Source of the DNA: a virus
IMG/VR virus record: IMGVR_UViG_3300030107_004847
Location: 1 to 28,193 of that record
Length of the DNA: 28,193 nucleotides
Strand: one strand, 5' to 3'
A program made the translations under genes and the position numbers. The stretch's first letter is position 1; each line of letters begins with the position of its first letter. The notes beneath the pieces were generated by a model that had not been told where the DNA came from, did no database searches, and worked only from the letters and a program-made list of their open reading frames with translations. Shown here one piece after another: positions 1,246-28,081 of the stretch.

Positions 1246-1401
1246 CTAAATTTTACTCCAAATAACCCTATTTTCAAGGGATTTCTCAATAATCGGTTGA
1301 ATTTCTTGTTTTAGCCTTCCAAGACTGGCGGCTTTTCTTTGAATCATCACGTTTTCTTTCGCCCCAAGTCTTTGCTCGATGCAATGGTCGCCCGAAATCA
1401 T
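1246..1401 (-). CDS. Hypothetical 51-residue protein
   Basis: The product starts MISGDHCIEQRLGAKENVMI and continues as a basic amphipathic helix. Its ATG overlaps the upstream stop in a TGATG arrangement and its stop is two bases before the next gene, which supports translation within the operon. No ribosome site is needed if it is coupled to the upstream frame. The family is unknown. Confidence 0.5.
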   Translation of the reverse strand: MISGDHCIEQRLGAKENVMIQRKAASLGRLKQEIQPIIEKSLENRVIWSKI

Positions 1402-1529
1402 CACGATTCCAGTTCGATCCCCTCGTTGTTCGTCTCAAGCTCGTTCGTTTTTGCATTTTCTTGCTCCGTAATCATATCTATGATGCCTGGTGTTCCGGAA
1501 AACTGAATAAATGGACCGATAAATAACAT
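1401..1529 (-). CDS. Short frame MLFIGPFIQFSG..., possibly N-terminally disrupted
   Basis: This 42-residue frame runs from an ATG at 1529 to a TGA that overlaps the next gene. The coding-like sequence extends upstream of the ATG (EIKVGVGGIGFADGLEIK) to a TGA with no ATG, GTG or TTG start in that stretch, and the ATG at 1529 has no ribosome site. A different frame opens with ATGAAAAAG directly at the stop of the upstream gene. One base change in the frame would join that start to this sequence. It may be a short gene with an unseen start, a frameshifted gene, or a decaying remnant. Confidence 0.33.
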   Translation of the reverse strand: MLFIGPFIQFSGTPGIIDMITEQENAKTNELETNNEGIELES

Positions 1530-1601
1530 TTTTATTTCTAGACCGTCGGCAAAACCAATGCCACCAACGCCAACCTTTATTTCTCACCCAAACTTTCTTT
1601 T

Positions 1602-1997
1602 TCATTTTATCTTTCGCGTTTTTTGTGCGGTTTTTCCCTTGTTGATAGCGAATCCCGGTCTCTCATAGTTATATCGTTTTAAGCCTGTACGCTCAAAGAA
1701 ATCTGCAACACTTTCACAGAGCGGTTTTTCGCCCATCAGAAACTTCTTTGCTGCAATCACTTCAATCGCGGTACATATAAAACAAATCAAAACAGCCGCA
1801 ATCGCATAAACCTTTCCCCAGCCCATCAACAGATCAAGAACAATCAAGACAACCGCAATAAAGTTCTGGGCTGTAATCGCACCGATCATCGATTGTCCGA
1901 ATTGTGCTTTCGACTCATTCGTATCATCGAACGTCATCGACGTAGCCATCTTATAACAAAAGAACGTAGCGATAGGAATTCCGACGATTGCAATCAT
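1602..1997 (-). CDS. Hypothetical membrane protein, 131 residues
   Basis: The chosen start (MIAIVGIPIATFFCYKMATS) has GGGAG eight bases upstream; an earlier in-frame ATG at 2015 would place that ribosome site inside the gene. The sequence has an N-terminal hydrophobic stretch (residues 1-15), a long one around NFIAVVLIVLDLLMGWG and another around VYAIAAVLICFICTAIEVIA. It ends in a basic soluble tail of about 45 residues. I infer two or three membrane segments. It overlaps the preceding metallopeptidase-like gene by four bases. Function unknown. Confidence 0.7.
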   Translation of the reverse strand: MIAIVGIPIATFFCYKMATSMTFDDTNESKAQFGQSMIGAITAQNFIAVVLIVLDLLMGWGKVYAIAAVLICFICTAIEVIAAKKFLMGEKPLCESVADFFERTGLKRYNYERPGFAINKGKTAQKTRKIK

Positions 1998-3267: not shown

Positions 3268-3665
3268 GCCTCCAATGCGTAGTTGTCGTATTTGTAGAAG
3301 TCTTTATCATGCTTCTTTTTATTTTTCATATAAAGAGAATGCATGTCTTTCTTCGGTTTCAAATGTTGATCGATGAATTTATCAAGCCACTCTTTCTCTT
3401 TCTTTCTGATATCATCTTGTACAGATATTCGGTTATCTGTCTTCGTTACAACAATCCATCCTTCGGATACTTTGTTTCTCCAGAAGGCGCGTGCTACGCT
3501 GATCTGCATAAGAGAGTCGAGTCTCTCTTCTCCTGCGAATCCGTATGAACGAATGCGAATGCGTGTAACGGGAGACGCTACTGGCGTGAACTCGTACCGC
3601 TTGTGCTTGTTATCTGGATGGGTGATGATGTGCGTTTTAATAAAGAACCACCTTTCCGTTTTCAA
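3264..3665 (-). CDS. Hypothetical 133-residue basic protein, TTG start
   Basis: The frame runs from a TTG at 3665 that lies inside the end of the upstream gene. No in-frame ATG or GTG occurs before residue 50, so either TTG is used or the start is later. The sequence is KRYEFTPVASPVTRIRIRSYGF, then a charged C-terminal half rich in lysine (KKEKEWLDKFIDQHLKPKKD). No family is recognised. It has no signal peptide or membrane segment. It overlaps the downstream gene by four bases. Confidence 0.52.
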   Translation of the reverse strand: MKTERWFFIKTHIITHPDNKHKRYEFTPVASPVTRIRIRSYGFAGEERLDSLMQISVARAFWRNKVSEGWIVVTKTDNRISVQDDIRKKEKEWLDKFIDQHLKPKKDMHSLYMKNKKKHDKDFYKYDNYALEA

Positions 3666-3960
3666 GTTTCACTTTCATCTTACCAGCTTTGAATCGTTTC
3701 TTCTTGTCTTTCCATTCTTTGACTGTCTTCTGAGCGGATTCGATCTGATCATCGAAGAGAGCTTCAATAGGTGCTGATTCAATGAACGGGAGTTGTGCTT
3801 GACGTTCTTCTTTCTCTCGTTTCTTCTGGAGTCCCGCTTGCTGTTTCTCAGTCATGCAATCCTTACACATTGTATGGTAGCCGTCTGGTTGTCGGTCATT
3901 GCTTTGAAACTGATCCACTGATTTCATTCTTTTACAACATTTGCATTTTTTAGTTTTCAC
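3637..3960 (-). CDS. Zinc-finger protein, 107 residues, GTG start
   Basis: Cysteines C6, C8 or C9 and C32, C35 (KCKCCKRMKS ... MCKDC) with an intervening DGYHT make a small treble-clef or zinc-ribbon fold, of the type often joined to HNH nucleases or found alone in phage genomes. The rest is a charged helix rich in K, E and Q and a basic tail. The GTG start has AAGGA seven bases upstream. With only the zinc module present, the likely role is nucleic-acid or protein binding rather than catalysis. Confidence 0.65.
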   Translation of the reverse strand: MKTKKCKCCKRMKSVDQFQSNDRQPDGYHTMCKDCMTEKQQAGLQKKREKEERQAQLPFIESAPIEALFDDQIESAQKTVKEWKDKKKRFKAGKMKVKLENGKVVLY

Positions 3961-3976
3961 GTTGGTTTCCTTTTTT

Positions 3977-4109
3977 GGAGTCCCGTAGGAGTCCCCATTA
4001 TAATCTGCCGGATGGAACCTGTCTAGGAGTCCCTTGTTATTTTGTTGGGGTCCCCGAATTAAAATTTTAGGATCCGGTTCGCTAGCCGCTGGAACGGGCA
4101 GGGACTCCT
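3977..4109. repeat. Cluster of GGAGTCCC-type repeats in an intergenic region
   Basis: The motif (T)AGGAGTCCC or a close variant occurs at 3977-3984, 3988-3997 and 4025-4033. A GGGGTCCCC palindrome lies at 4047-4055, and the inverted copy GGGACTCCTA at 4101-4110. The surrounding 238 bases (3961-4198) have no credible gene. The block lies upstream of the leftward zinc-finger gene, so it could be an operator cluster, a leader or a small RNA. The copy at 4025 and its inverse at 4101 could pair over a 70-base loop. Confidence 0.5.
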
Positions 4110-4198
4110 ACCGGCTGGCACTGTTCAGTATGAAAGAAGCCGCAAGGGGAGCCGGAGAGACCACCACTCACCCGGCTACAACCCTTACGGCTAGGGAA

Positions 4199-9031: not shown

Positions 9032-9328
9032 ATGCCGTTATATGAATACTATTGTGACAAGTGCGATCATGCATTCGACGAAATCCTCACAGTCTCTAAC
9101 CGTAACGAACCAACCAAGCAGCCATGTCCTGAGTGTGGCGAGATGGAAGTCCGGAAGGGCGTATCAGAGACCACAATGGGCGTGGATGCTACACTGACTC
9201 CGGACAAAGTGACAGGTGGCGATTGGTCTCGCCTGATGGATAAAGTCAAGAGCTATACCCCGAAGAAACTCCACGATGGTCTCGACAAGACCAAGTCTAA
9301 TTCGGGACAACAATACGGTCCCCGATGA
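9032..9328 (+). CDS. FmdB-like zinc-ribbon protein, 98 residues
   Basis: The start MPLYEYYCDKCDHAFDE and the second pair PCPECG match the small zinc-ribbon family found at the N-terminus of FmdB regulators: C8, C11, C32 and C35 bind one zinc. The remaining 60 residues are polar and probably flexible (KVKSYTPKKLHDGLDKTKSN). AAAGGAA lies 8-10 bases upstream of the ATG. The gene stands alone between a strong terminator and a 196-base spacer and has its own host-type promoter. Such proteins are thought to bind nucleic acids or regulate transcription; the exact role is unknown. Confidence 0.82.
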   Translation: MPLYEYYCDKCDHAFDEILTVSNRNEPTKQPCPECGEMEVRKGVSETTMGVDATLTPDKVTGGDWSRLMDKVKSYTPKKLHDGLDKTKSNSGQQYGPR

Positions 9329-9386
9329 TCCCCTGCCGACCATGGCTAACCGTGTTTTTCTATGGCTTTTTATTCGCCACACTTCC

Positions 9387-9406
9387 CCCCACTATTCCCC
9401 ACTATT
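9387..9406 (+). repeat. 10-bp tandem repeat CCCCACTATT x2
   Basis: Two perfect adjacent copies lie in the spacer 9329-9525. The spacer also has a loose AACCCA/TGGGTT hairpin at 9418-9446 that is too weak in T residues to call a terminator with confidence. A reading frame across this spacer exists but has repetitive H/P/T composition and no ribosome site. Confidence 0.5.
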
Positions 9407-9525
9407 GCACACAAAAAACCCAACTGGCACACTGACCAAATGGGTTTCTCAATGGGGTCTGAATAAGATTTATACTAAATTTCTATTGCCTTACATACAT
9501 AGTTATAGTCTATCGGAGTGTGAAT

Positions 9526-9825
9526 GTGAAGAAGTATCGTCTAGTTGAGATTGTTTGGGTTGACGCTGAAGAAATTGGTGATGTCGGTTGGAATAGTCTT
9601 AAGGAAATGAAGGTTGCTGCGAAGAAACCATGTCCTACCATGCATACAGTCGGCTACGTTCTCCATGAAGGTCCATATCATATTGCAGTCGTCAGCACAA
9701 TTGGCGATCCTGATAGTTCATCCTTAAATAAAATTCCTACTGCCTTTATTAAAGAGATACGAGAACTGACCGAGGACCCTGGGACACGGCCTCAAAATCC
9801 TCCAGATAAAAATAATAATAAATAA
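9526..9825 (+). CDS. Conserved phage hypothetical protein, 99 residues, GTG start
   Basis: The product KKYRLVEIVWVDAEEIGDVG followed by WNSLKEMKVAAKKPCPTMHT and a KIPTAFIKEIRELT end resembles a small phage protein I associate with T4-like and other marine phages; no function is known to me. GGAG lies seven bases before the GTG at 9526, while the upstream GTG at 9520 is too close to it. The C-terminal asparagine- and lysine-rich end overlaps an AATAAATA run. Only five bases separate it from the next gene. Confidence 0.7.
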   Translation: MKKYRLVEIVWVDAEEIGDVGWNSLKEMKVAAKKPCPTMHTVGYVLHEGPYHIAVVSTIGDPDSSSLNKIPTAFIKEIRELTEDPGTRPQNPPDKNNNK

Positions 9826-9829
9826 TGTT

Positions 9830-10294
9830 ATGAAAACATTCCGTCAATACATCACCGAGAAGCCAGCGAAGTTATCCGCGACTCTCCCTTATAAGGGATC
9901 GAAGTGGGAGGACTTTCGTGGCTTAGAGAATCCTACTGAGCGTGAATTGATTACCTTTCTAAAAAAATCGAAATCATTCGAGTTGCGATTCGTCGTGAGC
10001 AAAGAAGGTCTCATGTGGGTATGGGATAGCAATCACGGGCTACATGAAGCGGTCATATATGCAATGACTGGCGAGAGATACTCCGTGCATAATCTGTATG
10101 CGAAAGGGCTGATTGGCTTTCTTGATCCCGAGCATGATGGCATAGGGACGATGAAGAAAGGCAATCTCAAAGTCTGGGTCATGAATGAACGTGCGGTGGG
10201 TCCAAACTTCGCACTCAAAAATAAATTGTTGAAAGCACTTGCAAAGAGAATAAATAGTGCAGGAAAAGATAAAGTGTACTGGAGCGACGTATGA
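9830..10294 (+). CDS. Candidate internal head protein with capsid-targeting start, 154 residues
   Basis: MKTFRQYITE at residues 1-10 closely resembles the T4 capsid-targeting sequence (MKTYQEFIAE), which directs internal proteins into the prohead and is cut after an (L/I)xE site. Here I8-T9-E10 followed by K11 would be the cut. The mature part is basic with aromatic residues (MWVWDSNHGLHEAVIYAMTG) and has no recognised catalytic motif. It is the first of a run of genes (9830-12093) joined by four-base or one-base overlaps that share this start. I infer packaging in the capsid and delivery to the host. Confidence 0.75.
   Translation: MKTFRQYITEKPAKLSATLPYKGSKWEDFRGLENPTERELITFLKKSKSFELRFVVSKEGLMWVWDSNHGLHEAVIYAMTGERYSVHNLYAKGLIGFLDPEHDGIGTMKKGNLKVWVMNERAVGPNFALKNKLLKALAKRINSAGKDKVYWSDV
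10249..10256 (+). promoter_or_regulatory. Candidate late promoter (AATAAATA)
   Basis: AATAAATA lies 35 bases before the ATG at 10291, within the end of the upstream gene, leaving room for a transcript start near 10262 and the GGAG site before the ATG. It differs from TATAAATA only at the first base, a variation accepted in late promoters of T4 relatives. Confidence 0.35.
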
Positions 10295-10905
10295 AATCAT
10301 TTCTACAATATTCAACCGATGACATCATGCAGGATAATGACTCTTGGGTCATATCCGAAGCTGGCTTGTCTCGCGTTCTCAAACGAACACAAGATGCAGA
10401 TGATCTCGTAATCATTACAGCATATCGTAGCAACCTATCCAAGAAACAGAACATCAGCCGTAATCGTGCATTGCGAGGCGAACTGAATAAGAGAAAGATG
10501 GGTGCGTATCAACTCGTCGGGCATTGGCAGGAATGTCAGGATCCCAACATTGAATACTCCAAGTGTCCGAAGAATCAATTAGTCGATGCGATTGAGCGTT
10601 CCTTTCTCGTAATCAAGCCGGATGATATGTCCTCAGAAGACTTCTTGAAATTCCTTGTAGCCATGGCGAAGAAGTACGATCAGGATGGTATTGTATACAA
10701 GCATGAGAATGAGTACACCATCGTCAACAAGCGTGGTGCAACCGAATTCAAGATCGGCACAAACGTCGGTGTTGGAAAACTAGGACAAGCGTATAGCCAG
10801 TACATAAAGAAATTGGATGTTCCATTCATCTTCGAAGGCATCGATGTTCCCGTGACGAACATCGGCAAGAGAATATTCCAGCAGAATGGGATGTTGTGGG
10901 CATGA
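10291..10905 (+). CDS. Candidate packaged protein, DUF3293-like, 204 residues
   Basis: Residues 1-7 (MKSFLQY) match the capsid-targeting start, but the IxE cut site is displaced to residues 21-23 (VISE then AGLSRV), giving a longer propeptide. The mature part has VIITAYRSNLSKKQNISRNR, GAYQLVGHWQE and ERSFLVIKP followed by KKYDQDGIVY. This order resembles DUF3293, a domain of unknown function. Its start overlaps the upstream stop as ATGA, and its stop overlaps the next gene the same way. The first 21 bases are identical to those of the gene at 11881. Confidence 0.75.
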   Translation: MKSFLQYSTDDIMQDNDSWVISEAGLSRVLKRTQDADDLVIITAYRSNLSKKQNISRNRALRGELNKRKMGAYQLVGHWQECQDPNIEYSKCPKNQLVDAIERSFLVIKPDDMSSEDFLKFLVAMAKKYDQDGIVYKHENEYTIVNKRGATEFKIGTNVGVGKLGQAYSQYIKKLDVPFIFEGIDVPVTNIGKRIFQQNGMLWA

Positions 10906-11108
10906 AATCATTTCTAGAATACATCTCGGAGAGGCTGGTAGTGCATTACAAGAAGGGCAGAAAGGTCAAGGCGATCAAGGGAACCAAGAAGGGTCAGACT
11001 GGAATCGTTGTCTCAATGTGTCCCGGTGATGCGTGTGTGAACATTCGATTGGATGTTGGTGATCGAGTCATACAACAGAATCCTAAGTTCTGGCAGGTGA
11101 TCAAATGA
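10902..11108 (+). CDS. Candidate packaged KOW-like protein, 68 residues
   Basis: MKSFLEYISE followed by RLVV is a clean capsid-targeting start with an ISE cut after residue 10. The mature part KKGRKVKAIKGTKKGQTGIV is a KOW-type pattern, found in proteins that bind RNA or the transcription machinery, followed by VGDRVIQQNPKFWQVIK. The ATG at 10902 is chosen over a GTG six bases upstream because it makes the ATGA overlap with the previous gene. A delivered KOW protein could act on host transcription or translation; this is inference. Confidence 0.72.
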   Translation: MKSFLEYISERLVVHYKKGRKVKAIKGTKKGQTGIVVSMCPGDACVNIRLDVGDRVIQQNPKFWQVIK

Positions 11109-11881
11109 AACGAATATCAGAAGTGTACAAGAAATCAGGTCTCGGTAAATGGTTTCATAGCCAGTCTGCTGGTGGTAAGCCGGGATGGGATCGTTACAAT
11201 ACCAAGGGTGAACGAGTCGGTGAATGTGGCGACAGAAAACCCGGAGAAGGTAAACCAAAGTGCCTCTCTCGTCAGAAGGCTGCAAAGATGAGCAAGAAAG
11301 AAATCGGAAATGCAGTCCGACGTAAGCGTGCAAAGGATCCAGACACAGATCGACCTGGAACTGGCAACAAACCAATCAACGTATCAAATCGAATCGGGGA
11401 GAGTGCAATGAAATCATTCAAGCAGTTTATATCTGAGAAGAACAAACCAACCAATCCATCGCTGTGGTCCTCATGCATAGCACAAGCGAAGAAGAAGTTT
11501 GATGTCTATCCATCAGCATACGCGAATGCATGGGCATCTAAATGCTACAAAGGCAAAGGTGGAGGTTGGAGAGTAGAAGATTCAGTCGAACATGATTGTG
11601 GCTGTGTGGATGAGAAGACAGCAGCATGGACACGCAAAGCTGGAAAGAATAAAGAGGGTGGCTTGAATGCGAAGGGTAGAGCATCATACGAACGAGAGAA
11701 TCCCGGTAGCGATTTGAAAGCCCCTGTCTCCGCGAAGACTGCGAGGAAGAATCCTGATGGTAAGGCTGCTGGCAGAAGAAAATCATTCTGTGCAAGAATG
11801 GGTGGCATGCCTGGTCCAATGAAAGGCAAAGACGGCAAACCAACACGCAAGGCATTAGCACTTCGTAAATGGGATTGTTGA
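11105..11881 (+). CDS. Three-module fusion with an internal capsid-targeting start, 258 residues
   Basis: Module 1 (residues 1-95; SGLGKWFHSQSAGGKPGWDR, CLSRQKAAKMS) resembles DUF5872-type basic proteins of marine phages. Residues 102-111 are MKSFKQFISE, a complete capsid-targeting start in the middle of the frame, with its own GGGGAGAG ribosome site at the DNA level. Module 2 (to about 155) contains KKKFDVYPSAYANAWASKCY, a short motif shared by many marine phage proteins. DSVEHDCGCVDE (159-170) separates it from module 3 (KAGKNKEGGLNAKGRASYER, SFCARMGGMPGPMKG, TRKALALRKWDC), which matches DUF6321. The whole is strongly basic. I read it as a fused or nested pair of packaged proteins. Confidence 0.8.
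   Translation: MKRISEVYKKSGLGKWFHSQSAGGKPGWDRYNTKGERVGECGDRKPGEGKPKCLSRQKAAKMSKKEIGNAVRRKRAKDPDTDRPGTGNKPINVSNRIGESAMKSFKQFISEKNKPTNPSLWSSCIAQAKKKFDVYPSAYANAWASKCYKGKGGGWRVEDSVEHDCGCVDEKTAAWTRKAGKNKEGGLNAKGRASYERENPGSDLKAPVSAKTARKNPDGKAAGRRKSFCARMGGMPGPMKGKDGKPTRKALALRKWDC
11396..11410 (+). promoter_or_regulatory. Internal ribosome site and ATG inside the 258-residue gene
   Basis: GGGGAGAG (11396-11403) is followed after four bases by ATG (11408), which opens MKSFKQFISE in the same frame. Spacing and strength equal those of true starts here, so a shorter 157-residue product from 11408-11881 is likely. Confidence 0.6.
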
Positions 11882-12093
11882 TGAAATCATTTCTACAATA
11901 TATTTCAGAAGACTGGCTTTATGCCATACCATCATACCCTGTACAAGTAGATACAGATAAGGATGATGGTGAATGGATCACGGGAGATCCACCAATGCCG
12001 ATTGAGATAGGCAAGAATGCGAAAGCTGATATAGCAAGGGCAAATAAGCAAGTAGATAGGGATCGAAAGACAACACAAAAAAACCCCGGATGA
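11881..12093 (+). CDS. Candidate packaged protein, 70 residues
   Basis: MKSFLQYISE followed by DWLYAIPSYP is another capsid-targeting start with an ISE cut after residue 10. The mature peptide of about 60 residues is charged with no recognised domain. The ATG overlaps the upstream stop as TGATG. The stop codon lies inside the downstream terminator hairpin, so the gene ends the transcript. Its first 21 bases repeat exactly those at 10291. Confidence 0.7.
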   Translation: MKSFLQYISEDWLYAIPSYPVQVDTDKDDGEWITGDPPMPIEIGKNAKADIARANKQVDRDRKTTQKNPG

Positions 12094-17046: not shown

Positions 17047-18246
17047 ATGAAAAGATTTAAGCAATTCATCATGGAAGGTAAGAATCTACATCTTACCCAT
17101 GCGGCCGACTTTTCCTTTGAGGGGAAGGAGAGAGCGTCACAAGCGATTCAATTCATCGAATCTCTCACAGACATGCTCCAAGGTTCCTCAAAAACAAAAC
17201 TGAATGTTACACGCAAATGGGATGGTGCCCCTGCTATATTTGCAGGGACAAATCCAGAAAATGGCAAGTTCTTTGTTGGAACTAAGAGCGTTTTCAATAA
17301 GACTCCAAAGATAAATTACACAAACGCAGATATTAGTCGCAATCATGGCGGAGGATTAGCGGCTAAACTAAAAGTCGCACTCAAACATTTACCTTCTCTT
17401 GGAATCAAAGGAATTCTACAGGGAGATTTGCTGTTTGGACCAGGAGATATAACAAAAGATAATATTGACGGAGAGTCATACCTCACATTCACTCCCAATA
17501 CGATTACATATGCTGTCCAGTCTGGTTCCAATTTAGCCAAAAAAATAACCAAGGCTAAAATTGGTATTGTTTTCCATACAAAATATACAGGAAAACAAAT
17601 GACAAACATGAAAGCATCATTCAACGTGACTGATTCCGATTTCGGATCCTCCTCGTCAGTTTGGGCAGAGGATGCCAGATATAAAGATCTGACAGGTAAT
17701 GCTACCTTTACATCTAAAGAATATTCTAAGATGCTGTCCCTAATAGACAATGCAAAAGCAGCGTTGAAGGGTGCATCTAAAGGATCGAACTTTTTGGCTA
17801 GCAGTCCTGAAATACAAATGCACATAAACACATACACAAATGCAAAGGTTAGGGCAGGGAAATATTCATTCTCTGTTAGAGAATTTATCAGTTTTGTTAA
17901 TGATAAGTTATCTAAACAGGCAAATGCCCTCAAGACAGAAAAGGGCAGAGAAAGAAAACTAAAACAAGTCAACTCTATAGTTTCTGCTATAAGTAGCAGA
18001 ACTAGGGACATAGATGCAGTGTTCAAATTAAATACTGCCTTACAAAAATGCGTAATGATGCTGGTAAATAAATTACAAAAGGTTCAGTCAATGAGGACAT
18101 TCCTCAAGACATCAAATGGCTTTAAAGTTACGAGTGACGAAGGTTTTGTTGCCAGTGATAAAGTAGGGACTGCGATAAAACTCGTAAATAGACTAGAATT
18201 TTCAAGAGCTAATTTTGCTCTTGCAAAGAATTGGGTGAAAGGATAA
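17047..18246 (+). CDS. DUF6267-like candidate packaged protein, 399 residues
   Basis: MKRFKQFIME at 1-10 with an IME cut before GKNLHLTHAAD is a capsid-targeting start. The mature protein matches the DUF6267 type known from T4-like marine phages: THAADFSFEG, TRKWDGAPAIFAG (K57-x-D59-G60), KFFVGTKSVFNKTPKINYT, ILQGDLLFGPGD and TFTPNTITYAV. The KxDG and the later QGDLLF resemble motifs I and III of ATP-dependent ligases and other covalent nucleotidyltransferases, where K57 would carry AMP. That is inference, and motifs IV to VI are not clear to me. The C-terminal 180 residues are helical and lysine-rich. If packaged, it could act on ejected DNA. Confidence 0.8.
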   Translation: MKRFKQFIMEGKNLHLTHAADFSFEGKERASQAIQFIESLTDMLQGSSKTKLNVTRKWDGAPAIFAGTNPENGKFFVGTKSVFNKTPKINYTNADISRNHGGGLAAKLKVALKHLPSLGIKGILQGDLLFGPGDITKDNIDGESYLTFTPNTITYAVQSGSNLAKKITKAKIGIVFHTKYTGKQMTNMKASFNVTDSDFGSSSSVWAEDARYKDLTGNATFTSKEYSKMLSLIDNAKAALKGASKGSNFLASSPEIQMHINTYTNAKVRAGKYSFSVREFISFVNDKLSKQANALKTEKGRERKLKQVNSIVSAISSRTRDIDAVFKLNTALQKCVMMLVNKLQKVQSMRTFLKTSNGFKVTSDEGFVASDKVGTAIKLVNRLEFSRANFALAKNWVKG

Positions 18247-18904: not shown

Positions 18905-21900
18905 ATGAGTGCAGCAGTCTTTACATTCGGAAGGTTTAATCCCCCAACGTCAGGTCATATGGCTCTTGTAAATAAAATAAAGGACGTTGCCAGTAAAAAG
19001 AAAGCAACCGGCTACGTCTTCACAGGTCAGAGTGTTGATGCTGAGAAGAATCCACTCGACTACCGAACAAAAACCTCCCTCATGAAAAAAGCATTCTCGG
19101 GTGTAAAGGTTGTTAGTAACAAATCAATCAAACAGATATTTGACGCTATACAATTTTTAGATGGAAAGCACGATGAAATAATTTTGGTTGTTGGTTCGGA
19201 TAGAGTCAGAGAATTCAAAAGACTCATTCCAAGATATTTAAAAGATTATAACTTTAAGAAGTTTGATGTTGTTTCAGCAGGTGCAAGAGATCCGGATGCT
19301 GGAGGAGTAAAGGGAATGTCTGCATCTAAGATGAGGGCAGCGGCCGGACGAGGCGACTATAACGCATTCCGTCTCGGGTGTCCTGAAACTTTGTCGAAAA
19401 AAGATTGCATGACGATGTTCAAGTCTGTACAGAAAGGAATGGGCATGAAAGAAAATGTTGATGTTGATTGGTTCTCTATGGATGAGTTTAATGAATTTCT
19501 TGAAGAAAGAACACTGTCTCTTCAAGCAAGAAAGAAGATGGCAAGGGTGGCAAAGAAAACAGCTAAAAGAAGAGCAAGAACAAGAAAAAGAAAAGAGAAG
19601 ATTCGAAAATCCGGAGAGCAGTTAAAACTAAAAGCAAACAAGCAAGCTAAAATGACTTTGCGGAAAAAAATTCTAGGTGATCAGAAATGGTCAAAGCTGT
19701 CAGTGTCACAGAGGACTAGAATTGATCAACTTCTTCAAAAGAAAGAAAAAGCAATAAAGAGAATCTCTAAAAAACTACTACCGAAAGTTAAAAAACAAGA
19801 GAGAGAAAGACTACAGAAGGTGAGAGGTAAGACTCCCGGTCAACCCAATAACCTGTCTGATTCTTATAAATATATTAACCCTACTATAGAGGAAAATAAA
19901 ATGGCTGACGAAAAACCCTTGATGAGATGGATGGCTTCATTTCGTGCAGAGTTGAAGAAACTCGGTTCTTCATATGGTAAAGTAAAACCAGAAGACGCAC
20001 TGAAACTATATTACAAAAAGATAGATCCCAAGAGGGCTGCAAAGCAACTCAAGGAGTCTGTTGAATTGACAGAGAAGCCTTCAAATGAAATGAGAGAAAC
20101 AGGAAGACAAATGCTTCGTTCGATGCCAAGAGACATGAAGTCAAAGGTAGAAAAGGGTCAGTATAAAGTCGTTGCATCTGCTCCATCATGGCTCGGAGGC
20201 AATTCAGAGTTCCAAGTTCTCAAGTGGAGCAATAAGCCAAACGTAGATCCATACATCATGGTAATCGTCAGCAACCCGAAACATAAGCCAATGCAAGTGT
20301 TCGCATACTACGGAACACACCCATCTCGTAATGCAATTCAGTTTGCAAAGGGCAATGGTCTTCTTGAGTCCGTTGAACTGGATGAAGGCTCATTGGGATA
20401 CAAGAGAGCTTTGCGTGCCAGAAGGAAGAATCCTAAGAAAGAAAAGAAGATGGATTTCAGACGTTACGAGAAAGAAAAAGCTCGCGGGAATATAAAAGAT
20501 ATAAAAGATTCTGTTGAACTGGAAGAGGACAACACCGCCGCAGTTGCAAAGTTAGTCAAGAAAGCAGTGAAGAAGTATGTCACTGGTACTCCCAGAGTCC
20601 GATCCAAAGGCGGCAAGGCTCGTTTCATCATGTTAAGAGCAGACAAGATTGATAACAAATTGCGTAAGATGGTGCTTGATGTTGAACATCCAAACGCAAA
20701 TGTCAAGAAGATGGATGACATTCACTATGCTAACATCAGTGATAGAATCATCAGTGCGGGTGCCGATGTGTGGATAGATGCACTTGGATTGAAAGTGGAT
20801 GAAGCAGCAATCGATCTTGCAAGAGTTCCCCTTCGCACTCCAAAGGTAAAGACAGGCATCAAGAAGTCAACCAACATTCGTTTGGTTCTTCCAAATGCAC
20901 CCGAAGTCAAAGCAAAGATGGATCGCGTTCTAAAGAAAGATCCTAAATTCAGAAGACAGATGGCAAACCTAGTCGTAGATCGAGAGACGAGAGGAAAGGA
21001 CCTTGTCCTATACTTCAAGAGTACCAGAGGTCGAGAGAAGTTCCATCAGTTGTTGAACATGACAGAGGAATTCAACACAGAGGCAGTCGGAGCCGTCGTT
21101 AAAACGGCAGCGAAGGTTGCCGCTAAAGTTGCCGCTAAAGCAGCAGCGGACAAGATGAAAAGAAAACGTGATGAAATAGCAAAGAAGAGAGAAAAACTCT
21201 CCAAAGAGCGAGAGGATCTTGATGAAGTAGTTAATCTTTCACGTTACCGCGATAAAGCGAGAGCAGAGATTCAAAAAAGAGACAATAAATTTATTGTGAA
21301 GCATCGGGACGGCCAGTACGTTTCTAAAATGGACGGCAAGAAAATAAAAGGTGTTCTCAATGATCCTGACAAAGCTATGAGATTCAACAAGAGAGATGCA
21401 GACCGCGTTGCTAAGATTGAAAGAGGCAGTAAGGTAATTAAACTTGATGAAAGAAAGATGACTGATTCGGAAATTAAAAAAAAAGAAGAGATAGTAAAAG
21501 CTCTTAAGAGAAACAAGGATGAATTTGATAGACGTTACGGCGATGCGTCGAAGAACGTGATGTACGCGACTGCGACTAAGAACGCGATGAAGGATCACGT
21601 TGAGGTTGATGAAGATACCTTCCAGAAGAAAGCAGCACAGGATGCCGCTGCAAAGTTTGATGTTGAAATTGACAAAATCAAACAGAAAATCTCTGACAAC
21701 CAAGCACGAATGGATGCTGCGAAGAGTGCCGTGCAAGGTCAATCAAATTTAGATGCCCTGAGAAAACAAAAAGAGGCTGCAACAAAGAAGAAAGAAGAAG
21801 CAAAGAAAAAAATAGAGGCTATAAAGGCAAGAATGGCAGCAAGACGGGAAACCATGAGAGATCACGTTGAACTGGATGAAGCATGGACAGCAGACAGTGT

Positions 21901-23158
21901 GAAGAAGAATGCTGAAATTGGTTCTAAAAAAGGTTATGGTATCACCATCAAAAAAACTGGCGGAATTACCAAAACCCCATACAAGCACATGCTTATGACA
22001 ATGCGGCGTGACAAGAGTGTCAGAGTAACTTTCGATCACGGTAAAAATGAGTTTGAAGGAACTCCCGAATCAGTTGCCATCTATCTAAATAAACTTCTTG
22101 GTATCAAAGAATCCGTTGAACTGGATGAACGAAGAAGACAAGATGTCTATGCAATCGTAGACAAGAATGGTAAAGTTGTTTCATCGAAACTTACAAAGAA
22201 AAACGCACACAAAGAAATCGCAAAATACCGATATGCTTCTGATGCGACAATCGTTCTTGACCCCGATGCAAAAGATGGTGATATCCTAAAGGCATATGCG
22301 AAAAAGAAAAATAAGAAATCCGACCCTGAATTAGATTTAAGAAGACTACGCAGTGGTGCGTATGTTAGTAAGAGGGAATCCGTTGAACTGGATGAAAATA
22401 AGCGTGTGAAAGACTTAGTTGCTAAATACAACAAAGCAGGAAGAGTCGCATTTCACTATCCTAGAAAGAAAAAGGTATCCCTTGATGGTGGAAGACTAAT
22501 GAGTGAAAAGGATGCCATTGAAAAAATGAAAAGTGTTCTTGGTGAAGCAATCGGTGATGGCAAAAAGAAAGACATGAGACAGCGTAAACTTGATGTCGCA
22601 CTTGCGAAAATTGATAAGACATTCAAGGAACCTTACAAGCCCATGACACATAGAAAGGGCATCGCTGCAAAGGGTCATGAAAAAACTAGATTAAATCCTC
22701 AAGGTAATCTGTATAAGGATATAGGGAGAAACAAGAGGATAGATGATATAAAACTAATCTCTAGAATGTTGAAGAGAGGCATGAAGCCTGCTGAGATAAG
22801 GAAAAAAGGTTATAAGCAAAACCAGATTAGATCAGCACAGAGATATCTGAAAGATGATGTCAACGAGAATCATGCGTCTCTCGCAGATCGTAGAGCATAC
22901 CTTAAAAAAACTGTTGATGATCGTAAAGCAAGAGTCAAGGCTCGAAGAGAGATGATCAAACAGGGCCGTGCAAAAGTAGGTGATGGTAAGGATGTAGATC
23001 ATAAGAATGGAAATCCACAGGATAATAGTTCTACAAATCTTAGAATGTCCAGTGTAAATAATAATAGAAGCAGAAACAACAACGAGGAAAATGGAGCAGG
23101 CGACGAAGGTACAAATAAGTTGCTCAAGAAATACAAGAAAGAAACACCGGGCGCATGA
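18905..23158 (+). CDS. Candidate internal-head polyprotein: nucleotidyltransferase, basic modules, HNH-like end (1417 residues)
   Basis: Residues 1-180 are a cytidylyltransferase-type domain: GRFNPPTSGH (9-18) is the HxGH-like motif and SASKMR (139-144) the ISSTxxR-like motif. MDEFNEFLEE (192-201) is an internal capsid-targeting-like sequence with a LEE cut. Linkers of the form (S/H)VEL(D/T/E)E end at E390, E494, E541, E992, E1075 and E1164, and a VEVDE variant ends at E903. Other LxE candidates end at E774, E849 and E1214, and a weaker VDE at E633. They separate modules of about 45-230 residues, mostly lysine-rich, including a coiled coil (904-992) and a KNVMYATATKNAMKD motif (850-903) known from marine phages. 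The end has DVDHKNGNPQDNS (D1363, H1366) and NRSRN, an HNH-type pattern. ATAAGGG precedes the ATG. I infer cutting by the prohead protease into about ten products. Confidence 0.82.
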   Translation: MSAAVFTFGRFNPPTSGHMALVNKIKDVASKKKATGYVFTGQSVDAEKNPLDYRTKTSLMKKAFSGVKVVSNKSIKQIFDAIQFLDGKHDEIILVVGSDRVREFKRLIPRYLKDYNFKKFDVVSAGARDPDAGGVKGMSASKMRAAAGRGDYNAFRLGCPETLSKKDCMTMFKSVQKGMGMKENVDVDWFSMDEFNEFLEERTLSLQARKKMARVAKKTAKRRARTRKRKEKIRKSGEQLKLKANKQAKMTLRKKILGDQKWSKLSVSQRTRIDQLLQKKEKAIKRISKKLLPKVKKQERERLQKVRGKTPGQPNNLSDSYKYINPTIEENKMADEKPLMRWMASFRAELKKLGSSYGKVKPEDALKLYYKKIDPKRAAKQLKESVELTEKPSNEMRETGRQMLRSMPRDMKSKVEKGQYKVVASAPSWLGGNSEFQVLKWSNKPNVDPYIMVIVSNPKHKPMQVFAYYGTHPSRNAIQFAKGNGLLESVELDEGSLGYKRALRARRKNPKKEKKMDFRRYEKEKARGNIKDIKDSVELEEDNTAAVAKLVKKAVKKYVTGTPRVRSKGGKARFIMLRADKIDNKLRKMVLDVEHPNANVKKMDDIHYANISDRIISAGADVWIDALGLKVDEAAIDLARVPLRTPKVKTGIKKSTNIRLVLPNAPEVKAKMDRVLKKDPKFRRQMANLVVDRETRGKDLVLYFKSTRGREKFHQLLNMTEEFNTEAVGAVVKTAAKVAAKVAAKAAADKMKRKRDEIAKKREKLSKEREDLDEVVNLSRYRDKARAEIQKRDNKFIVKHRDGQYVSKMDGKKIKGVLNDPDKAMRFNKRDADRVAKIERGSKVIKLDERKMTDSEIKKKEEIVKALKRNKDEFDRRYGDASKNVMYATATKNAMKDHVEVDEDTFQKKAAQDAAAKFDVEIDKIKQKISDNQARMDAAKSAVQGQSNLDALRKQKEAATKKKEEAKKKIEAIKARMAARRETMRDHVELDEAWTADSVKKNAEIGSKKGYGITIKKTGGITKTPYKHMLMTMRRDKSVRVTFDHGKNEFEGTPESVAIYLNKLLGIKESVELDERRRQDVYAIVDKNGKVVSSKLTKKNAHKEIAKYRYASDATIVLDPDAKDGDILKAYAKKKNKKSDPELDLRRLRSGAYVSKRESVELDENKRVKDLVAKYNKAGRVAFHYPRKKKVSLDGGRLMSEKDAIEKMKSVLGEAIGDGKKKDMRQRKLDVALAKIDKTFKEPYKPMTHRKGIAAKGHEKTRLNPQGNLYKDIGRNKRIDDIKLISRMLKRGMKPAEIRKKGYKQNQIRSAQRYLKDDVNENHASLADRRAYLKKTVDDRKARVKARREMIKQGRAKVGDGKDVDHKNGNPQDNSSTNLRMSSVNNNRSRNNNEENGAGDEGTNKLLKKYKKETPGA
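19865..19903 (+). promoter_or_regulatory. Late promoter, ribosome site and in-frame ATG inside the polyprotein gene
   Basis: A perfect TATAAATA (19865-19872) is followed by TATAGAGGA (19884-19892) and ATG (19901), in the same frame as the large gene (codon 333, MADEKPLMRWMASF). The other two frames are closed by several stops here, as expected for former intergenic DNA. A shorter 1085-residue product starting at 19901 is likely. Confidence 0.6.
20369..22396 (+). repeat. Dispersed linker repeats TCCGTTGAACTGGATGAA
   Basis: The 18-base sequence is identical at 20369-20386, 22112-22129 and 22379-22396. A 15-base core GTTGAACTGGATGAA also occurs at 21866-21880. Degenerate forms lie at 20057-20074, 20510-20527 and 21596-21613. 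Each encodes the (S/H)VE(L/V)(D/T/E)E linker between protein modules. Confidence 0.9.
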
Positions 23159-27310: not shown

Positions 27311-27318
27311 TATTTATT
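27311..27318 (-). promoter_or_regulatory. Candidate late promoter (AATAAATA), leftward
   Basis: On the leftward strand AATAAATA overlaps the stop of the protease gene and lies 16 bases before the resolvase ATG, with AAGGAAAC between. The leader would be very short, so the call is tentative. Confidence 0.33.
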
Positions 27319-28081
27319 CTTGTGTTATGGTATTTATCCATGAATAATAGAATGGAATGCTAGAAAATCCATTTTCATAATATACGCCGTTCTTTTGGGC
27401 TAGGTATGATGTTATTCCTATTAATTTGCCATTCTTAGTTACTAACGCTCCACCCGAGTCGCCAAACCAAACTGTGTCTGTGATTGGAAGACAAATTTCA
27501 AATTGAGGTCTTCCAATTAATCTACCAAAATACCAGAAAACATCATCCTTACTATATCTTTTCATTCCTCCACTATATCCTATCACGGTAAGTGGCGATC
27601 CTTTATAAATTCTATCCTGTTTAGGATCAAACAACTCTACTGGTATTTCATCACATTCCTCTTCAAGAATTAACATTGCAATGTCATAGTGTTCTGACCA
27701 ACATGGATTGAAAAGAAAGTAATCTGGTTTTGGTACAGGATAGTATATCACTTCTGCAATACAATGTCTATCTCCATCTTGTGTAATGAATACTAAATCC
27801 TCTGGATCATGATCATCAGATACATGTGCGGCTGTTAAGACAACAAGAGGATCAATTACTACTCCACTTCCGATGAGACGCTCATCTTCTGAGAAATTTA
27901 TAGAACCAACAAAAGGATATGGATCGGGATCATCATAAATGACACGTTGAAAATTCTGTGGAATTTTCTGAATGAAACTTATAATTGTTTCTTTTGGTTC
28001 CGGTGGTGTTTCGGAAACAGATGGTGTTCTGCAACCGCTTAAGCATAACAAAAGTGTTAAGATTGCGGAATACAATTTCAT
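27314..28081 (-). CDS. Trypsin-like serine protease lipoprotein, 255 residues
   Basis: MKLYSAILTLLLCLSGC is a lipoprotein signal with lipobox LSGC (C17). The chymotrypsin-fold triad is complete: TAAH (H86), HYDIAML (D133) and FGDSGGAL (S209). The segment IGSGVVIDPLVVLTAAHVSD and the later GKLIGITSYL are typical of S1 proteases. The mature enzyme would be lipid-anchored and act outside the cytoplasm on an unknown substrate, perhaps host surface proteins, a competing phage receptor, or a lysis partner. Cysteines at 107, 127, 143 and 197 could form disulfides. No good ribosome site is seen; TATATAATATAG lies directly before the ATG. The gene lies downstream of a terminator, so it must have its own promoter. 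Confidence 0.85.
   Translation of the reverse strand: MKLYSAILTLLLCLSGCRTPSVSETPPEPKETIISFIQKIPQNFQRVIYDDPDPYPFVGSINFSEDERLIGSGVVIDPLVVLTAAHVSDDHDPEDLVFITQDGDRHCIAEVIYYPVPKPDYFLFNPCWSEHYDIAMLILEEECDEIPVELFDPKQDRIYKGSPLTVIGYSGGMKRYSKDDVFWYFGRLIGRPQFEICLPITDTVWFGDSGGALVTKNGKLIGITSYLAQKNGVYYENGFSSIPFYYSWINTITQE

Follow-up and report, generated by a model that had tools for sequence, protein, structure and literature searches.

A candidate T4-like phage polyprotein whose exchangeable cassettes are joined by putative prohead-protease sites

The heads of T4-like phages contain proteins that are cut during assembly. In T4, the prohead protease gp21 cuts after Glu in L/I-X-E, and the first cut site to be found was a Glu-Ala bond (PMC9026906). 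Internal protein IPIII carries a leader in which residues 4 and 7 serve targeting and residues 8 and 10 cutting, and gp21 cuts three core proteins, gp22, gp67 and another one, into several fragments each (PMC9026906). In phage 201phi2-1, 29 cuts were recorded in 19 proteins (PMC9026906). The T4 internal proteins Ip1-3 are restriction inhibitors, which block host restriction enzymes (PMC12373910). A polyprotein analogy was drawn by the authors who described the polyvalent proteins of phages (PMC5512222).

Here we examine a protein, labelled P0001, encoded in a 28,193-base IMG/VR virus record; this whole stretch is referred to as the window. Its reading frame is intact, comprising 1417 codons without a stop when counted from the first possible start. 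The original prediction, made from the DNA alone, had noted seven copies of (S/H)VE(L/V)(D/T/E)E in the protein. All seven were located, starting at residues 385, 489, 536, 898, 987, 1070 and 1159, and none appeared in 2000 residue shuffles. Further LxE sites end at residues 201, 774 and 849. The short motif [LI]xE alone is not in excess in P0001 (14 occurrences against 9.8 expected from shuffles), so LxE counting was dropped as evidence; the signal lies in the longer linker and its placement. One linker, HVEVDE (E903), departs from the T4 rule in having Val at P3. Cutting at the nine LxE sites first listed and at E903 is predicted to yield 11 pieces of 47-253 residues, all of them basic (pI 9.0-10.7). 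The original prediction had given about ten mostly basic products of about 45-230 residues, from a cut list that omitted E903.

In the model proposed here, a T4-superfamily phage makes P0001 as a precursor polyprotein, which would enter the prohead core while the head is being assembled, probably by means of an internal targeting-like motif at residues 192-201. A gp21-type protease would then cut the L-X-E linkers after Glu and release about 11 small basic proteins, a nucleotidyltransferase (NTase) and an HNH protein among them. The products would stay in the head, enter the cell with the DNA and act on the host or its defences, and cassettes would be gained, lost and exchanged by recombination within linkers. 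We infer cutting, packaging, retention and injection on different grounds: entry into the prohead core and cutting from sequence comparison, retention and injection by analogy with T4 internal proteins. The probability of this model as a whole is, in our estimate, about two in three. Features of the window and of related contigs are collected in Table 1.

Table 1. Positions of features in the window and, in the last three rows, in related contigs
Feature	Position	Strand	Basis or remark
154-aa ORF, leader MKTFRQYITE	9830..10294	+	motif
70-aa ORF, leader MKSFLEYISE (from residue 3)	10896..11108	+	motif
258-aa ORF, internal MKSFKQFISE and DUF6321; PHROG families 727/3477 in common with MS-detected S-CREM2 gp160	11105..11881	+	Pfam, PHROG, motif
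74-aa ORF, leader MKSFLQYISE (from residue 5)	11869..12093	+	motif
DUF6267 protein, leader MKRFKQFIME; fused to NTase in PHROG 455	17047..18246	+	Pfam, PHROG, motif
Proposed polyprotein ORF, 1417 aa	18905..23158	+	ATG 18905 to stop 23158; orthologue L137 has same ends, different middle
NMNAT/NadD-like nucleotidyltransferase domain, residues 1-178, GRFNPPTSGH and SASKMR	18905..19438	+	profiles, AlphaFold, Foldseek to NadD (E 3.9e-5)
Motif MDEFNEFLEE resembling a capsid-targeting sequence, internal, residues 192-201; its last residue is the proposed cut E201	19478..19507	+	pattern match; WFxxxEFxxF kept in leaderless homologues; AlphaFold short helix after disordered stretch
Basic helical module, residues 202-310	19508..19834	+	AlphaFold; [LI]xE just upstream in 18/21 homologues
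Linker SVELTE, proposed cut after E390	20057..20074	+	same upstream module ends in SVELDE in L020, L137
Linker SVELDE, proposed cut after E494	20369..20386	+	motif scan
Linker SVELEE, proposed cut after E541	20510..20527	+	in L009, ESVELDE stands before the downstream DNTAA module
LDE site, proposed cut after E774	21218..21226	+	MDE at same place in L007
LDE site, proposed cut after E849	21443..21451	+	extra cassette inserted here in L007
Module RKMT..VMYATATK with linker HVEVDE (E903)	21452..21613	+	relatives in 530 viral contigs
Linker HVELDE, proposed cut after E992	21863..21880	+	relatives; AlphaFold low-confidence gap
Module AWTADS.. with linker SVELDE, proposed cut after E1075	21881..22129	+	missing in L007 exactly between linkers
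Module RRRQDVYAI.. with linker SVELDE, proposed cut after E1164	22130..22396	+	relatives; AlphaFold
C-terminal part, net charge +36, HNH motif DVDHKNGNPQDNS	22397..23155	+	profiles; kept in L137, L124, L135, L144, L147, L148
gp67-like core protein with ESVELDE and cassettes (L134, in G016)	9260-9835	-	upstream of gp21
gp67-like core protein with ESVELDE and cassettes (L117)	3327-4145	-	upstream of gp21
gp67-like core protein with ESVELDE and cassettes (L170)	1365-1727	+	upstream of gp21

The enzyme-like ends, first recognised by their motifs, were examined by independent searches. At the N-terminus, Pfam CTP_transf_like matches residues 7-107 above its cutoff (E 4.5e-6), the PHROG cytidyltransferase families 3041 and 395 match with E 8.3e-54 and 1e-38, and AlphaFold predicts a folded domain in which the NTase motif residues are conserved. 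A PDB sequence search with a profile of the NTase plus basic module gave no matches; the fold search (Foldseek) matched NadD/NMNAT structures. The model of residues 1-332, built from 13 homologues, is compact over 1-178, disordered over 183-192, forms a short helix at 192-202 and a helical part at 206-308, and ends in disorder. The basic helical module occurs as a stand-alone gene in phage Melnitz. At the C-terminus, in addition to the HNH motif itself, there is a match to an HNH endonuclease family (PHROG 4578, E 6.7e-5), and Pfam HNH_3 lies just under its cutoff (residues 1360-1387, E 3.6e-5, 23.7 bits against 24.8). Pfam finds only these two domains in P0001, and no embedded peptidase, ParB, ART or similar domain.

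AlphaFold renders residues 838-1170 as folded modules, with minima of confidence at segment residues 149-152, 233-239 and 316-326. These coincide with the linkers ending at 992, 1075 and 1164, the linker ending at 903 showing a shallower dip. The model thereby places the linkers in predicted gaps between folded modules. A structure search of this segment against the PDB returned nothing significant.

Next, we looked for capsid-targeting sequences. The pattern M.{1,2}[FYW]..[FYHW][LIM].E is present six times in ORFs of the window, where 0.1 would be expected: at or near the start of four ORFs, once inside the DUF6321 ORF and once in P0001 at 192-201. At its N-terminus (MSAAVFTF), P0001 has no sequence of the form M..[FY]..[FY][IL].E. 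Most NTase homologues do have a capsid-targeting leader or a related one, 21 of 67 carrying the N-terminal motif proper and many others a looser version such as MKSFLQIIEE. In homologues devoid of the leader, WFxxxEFxxF is often retained directly behind the NTase (P0001, L137, L124, L144, L148, L154, L135, L114 and L064). The two Phe of this internal motif are kept in homologues, and the cutting residues L and E occur only in the window and in L144. Since the two conserved Phe are the targeting positions, we propose that the motif may act as an internal targeting signal of P0001. Three other polyproteins (L141, L025 and L159) begin with a capsid-targeting motif. It could be argued that P0001 is both made and cut in the cytoplasm, by a host protease or another phage protease, and never becomes part of the virion; the lack of any head gene in the 28-kb fragment and of an N-terminal leader on its NTase would agree with that. 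However, the leaders of most homologues, together with the occurrence of the linker in gp67-like proteins next to gp21 (see below), make such a course of events highly improbable.

Targeting-like motifs were also noticed at the extreme C-terminus of three ORFs (FKSFREFINEQ, NEFSQFILEAE and REFNQFILEQAE, in L002 282-1754, L002 3010-5160 and L003 2547-4646). Such C-terminal motifs are rare, 3 among 1526 ORFs against 0.2 expected. T4 Alt is cut at its C-terminus.

The published virion proteome of phage S-CREM2 includes a homologue of the cytidylyltransferase (PMC10665884), and the literature reports one in S-SM1 virions as well. In S-CREM2, the strict leader is carried by 3 of 28 non-structural virion proteins but by only 1 of 167 undetected proteins (P 0.0097); the three are a SAM hydrolase, an APH-like kinase and the cytidylyltransferase. 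The authors of the proteome consider that non-structural proteins could be carry-over (PMC10665884). No ESVELDE strings were found in S-CREM2. Inspection by eye of S-CREM2 (L010-L013) suggested variant leaders in more of its virion-detected proteins, gp12, gp13 and gp136 (RFASFMAE, MKDLHSFLTE and MQTFSMFFSE), including a nuclease annotated as Cas9. The window itself encodes, at 10291-10905, an ORF resembling S-adenosylmethionine lyase (Pfam E 5.9e-10) with the imperfect leader MKSFLQYSTD, and the SAM hydrolase contained in S-CREM2 virions has a proper one.

Comparison of linkers preceding the same module showed which residues are retained. Nine different linker sequences precede the AWTADS module; Glu stands at P1 in all nine, and P3 is Leu in seven and Met in two. 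Upstream of the basic module (residues 204 on), [LI]xE is found in 18 of 21 homologues as against 0.187 of random windows, a window being 22 residues long and reaching from 18 residues before the module, and these junctions otherwise differ widely in sequence among the 21 homologues. What the varying junctions keep, P1 Glu and P3 Leu or Met, is the T4 gp21 rule, L/I-X-E. Directly after the linker, Ala is found in 31 of 67 cases. In the T4 gp23 sequence, FLTE stands before AEIGG, and this is the cut site.

The linkers are also alike at the DNA level. The sequence GAATCCGTTGAACTGGATGAA recurs among them, codon identity between the linkers of the P0001 ORF is 0.71 where codon usage predicts 0.43, and within each phage the observed values are 0.71-1.00 against 0.43-0.60 expected. 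Their conservation may therefore partly reflect DNA recombination and not cutting. A frame-blind search with 21 nt of linker DNA retrieved 64 viral stretches, where long ORFs contain 99 of the 102 copies in frame (a weak indication, as most phage DNA is coding). The same search of a prokaryote genome collection gave one match, in an alphaproteobacterial genome bin; it was rejected as a relative because it lies in an unrelated ORF reading like a serine recombinase. If the linkers were never cut, they could serve as flexible spacers and as short stretches of DNA homology for recombination of modules, P0001 remaining one multi-domain protein in the manner of polyvalent proteins. The unusual similarity of linker codons within each phage would then be expected, as would the location of linkers in disordered gaps. 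Nevertheless, P3 Leu and P1 Glu persist where the remaining junction sequence changes, these phages encode a protease whose specificity is this very motif, and nearly all linker copies are in frame, for what this last point is worth. As some junctions keep only P3 and P1, the idea of uncut spacers is weakened, and we consider it unlikely. We read the linker as having a double role, that of a probable cut site in the protein and of a seam in the DNA.

Exchange of cassettes at these seams is apparent among relatives. In L007, HVELDE runs directly into RRQDVYAI, the module 993-1075 being absent exactly between linkers, and extra modules follow VIKLDE and precede AAIDLAR. In L009, the RRQDVYAI module is joined to the DNTAA module. 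Strings of modules joined by ESVELDE are encoded in L008, L018, L020, L111, L132, L141, L153 and L156, and L105 encodes a string of likewise 1417 residues with at least nine linkers, mostly of the form E[ES][VIF]ELDE. The nearest orthologue, L137, shares the NTase, the basic module and the HNH end with P0001 and has different cassettes in the middle; L124, L135, L144, L147 and L148 likewise combine homologues of the two ends of P0001.

This impression was borne out by the breakpoints of local alignments. Among 18 polyproteins, 64 of 159 alignment ends lay no more than 4 residues from a linker; with shifted linkers, 2000 trials averaged 7.0 such ends and never exceeded 21. For alignment starts, the count was 33 of 139, against 6.5 with shifted linkers. 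For P0001 alone, ends and starts were both significant (P about 0.002-0.008) when the nine listed sites and 903 were used. With the seven linkers only, ends were significant and starts were not, because the commonest module (VMYATATK) starts at an LDE site; the test across the 18 proteins gives the clearer result. Evidently, linkers are conserved while modules are swapped in homologues, a check that the original prediction had proposed: L007, L137, the nine AWTADS junctions and the breakpoints of the 18 proteins give a clearly positive answer.

Several neighbouring observations deserve mention. Relatives of the VMYATATK module in the 530 viral contigs often lie in the gene directly after the NTase gene. 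By eye, a 1799-aa ORF of L124 (minus strand), which encodes an NTase-HNH polyprotein, has between its cassettes a stretch (FCRFTNHSHKNANLT..GEELFIDY) resembling a SET domain, and the NTase homologues at L002 3010-5160 and L020 3563-5674 appear to continue into an ATP-grasp and pepsin-like region, not into cassettes. Beside the polyprotein region, the window contains an ORF resembling a secreted trypsin-type protease (27314-28081, minus strand, GDSGGAL), and a similar ORF occupies the same place in L002.

The 28-kb window has no recognised gp21, MCP or other head gene, and the protease is therefore deduced from relatives. Among those longer than 73 kb, 10 of 11 encode gp21 (Peptidase_S77). Peptidase_S77 was found in G002 (86.8 kb), G003-G008, G014 (134.8 kb), G015 (157 kb), G016 (74.7 kb) and G022, as well as in the isolates DLP_6, Melnitz, MS29 and P-RSM1, and is absent from the 114.9-kb G009 and from shorter fragments. 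The AWTADS polyprotein is carried by G002; G003-G008 carry the VMYATATK module and not VELDE strings.

In three relatives, ESVELDE and cassettes are attached to gp67-like proteins (Table 1). In the N-terminal domain they show a relationship to T4 gp67, weak by single-sequence PHROG scan (E 0.016) and clearer by profile comparison (hhalign probability 92.7%, against 0.4% for the reversed control). One of their cassettes is shared with polyproteins in L017, L111, L002, L141 and L020. Since the annotation of T4 gp67 is that of a prohead core protein giving rise to internal peptides, the linker would here occupy the position of a known gp21 substrate. P0001 itself has no gp67 N-terminal domain and is not the gene just upstream of gp21.

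The same association raises the question of whether P0001 is simply cut by gp21 as a component of the prohead core, like T4 gp67 and gp22, most of its fragments being spacers lost from the head, and injected effectors being few or absent. Its modules are small and basic, and in T4, core proteins yield several fragments, most of which do not stay in the head (PMC9026906). A folded NTase with conserved motif residues and an HNH motif are hardly what such a role calls for, however; cytidylyltransferase homologues stay in S-SM1 and S-CREM2 virions, and the turnover of cassettes resembles an accessory arsenal more than a scaffold. Such a core role without injected products seems rather improbable to us. 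We favour injected products, and are inclined, by a slight balance, towards a still broader view: that T4-superfamily phages run a combinatorial payload, in which cassettes are joined by short DNA seams doubling as prohead-protease sites and any string, polyprotein or gp67-like, may be packaged, cut in the head and injected as separate proteins.

If the proposed model is true, one gene delivers about 11 proteins per copy into the cell at infection, and recombination can bring in further payloads with no need for another packaging signal. A sequence rule, made up of the leader M..F..FIxE and of VELDE or LxE linkers separating folded modules, would then serve to find many so far unknown injected proteins in environmental T4-like phages. 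As T4 internal proteins block restriction enzymes, the cassettes are candidate anti-defence proteins, and the NMNAT-like N-terminal domain may point to action on host NAD.

Earlier work has described injected T4 internal proteins, core proteins with multiple cuts, and polyvalent proteins. The original claim that multi-cut precursors are undescribed was too strong, since T4 gp22, gp67 and another core protein (PMC9026906) and proteins of 201phi2-1 are known to be cut at multiple sites. What we have not found described is the cassette string with enzymes and the exchange of its pieces at cut sites. Our literature search, with most subscription papers outside its reach, turned up no account of such strings being exchanged at sites for a prohead protease, and a search for the linker string gave surnames and unrelated matches only.

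The nearest known systems each share some of these traits. T4 IPI-III and Alt have in common with P0001 the L/I-X-E cut rule and, as predicted here, basic products, while the 10-residue leader M..F..FIxE is found in the neighbours and homologues of P0001, and delivery with DNA would be expected. But each of those T4 proteins has its own gene and a single leader, whereas P0001 strings together about 11 predicted products and has an internal targeting-like motif. With T4 gp22, gp67 and gp68 it would share several gp21 cuts per chain, and the linker occurs in gp67-like proteins of relatives; T4 core fragments, in contrast, are mostly lost from the head and lack enzyme domains. The virion cytidylyltransferase of Kyanoviridae (T4-GC190; PHROG 3041/395/455) is homologous to the N-terminal domain of P0001, although in three Synechococcus phages it is a protein of 286-435 residues that starts with a leader and lacks the cassette string. 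Polyvalent proteins (Iyer et al. 2017, PMC5512222) likewise unite numerous domains in a single phage protein presumed to enter the cell along with the DNA. Their release has been proposed to proceed via embedded peptidase domains, whereas none was found in P0001, whose sites fit a prohead protease acting in trans. Finally, in phiKZ, SPN3US and 201phi2-1, a gp21-related protease cuts many head proteins, including ejection proteins, some at multiple sites; unlike the cuts proposed for P0001, these mainly remove N-terminal propeptides, and the specificity in SPN3US is A-X-E.
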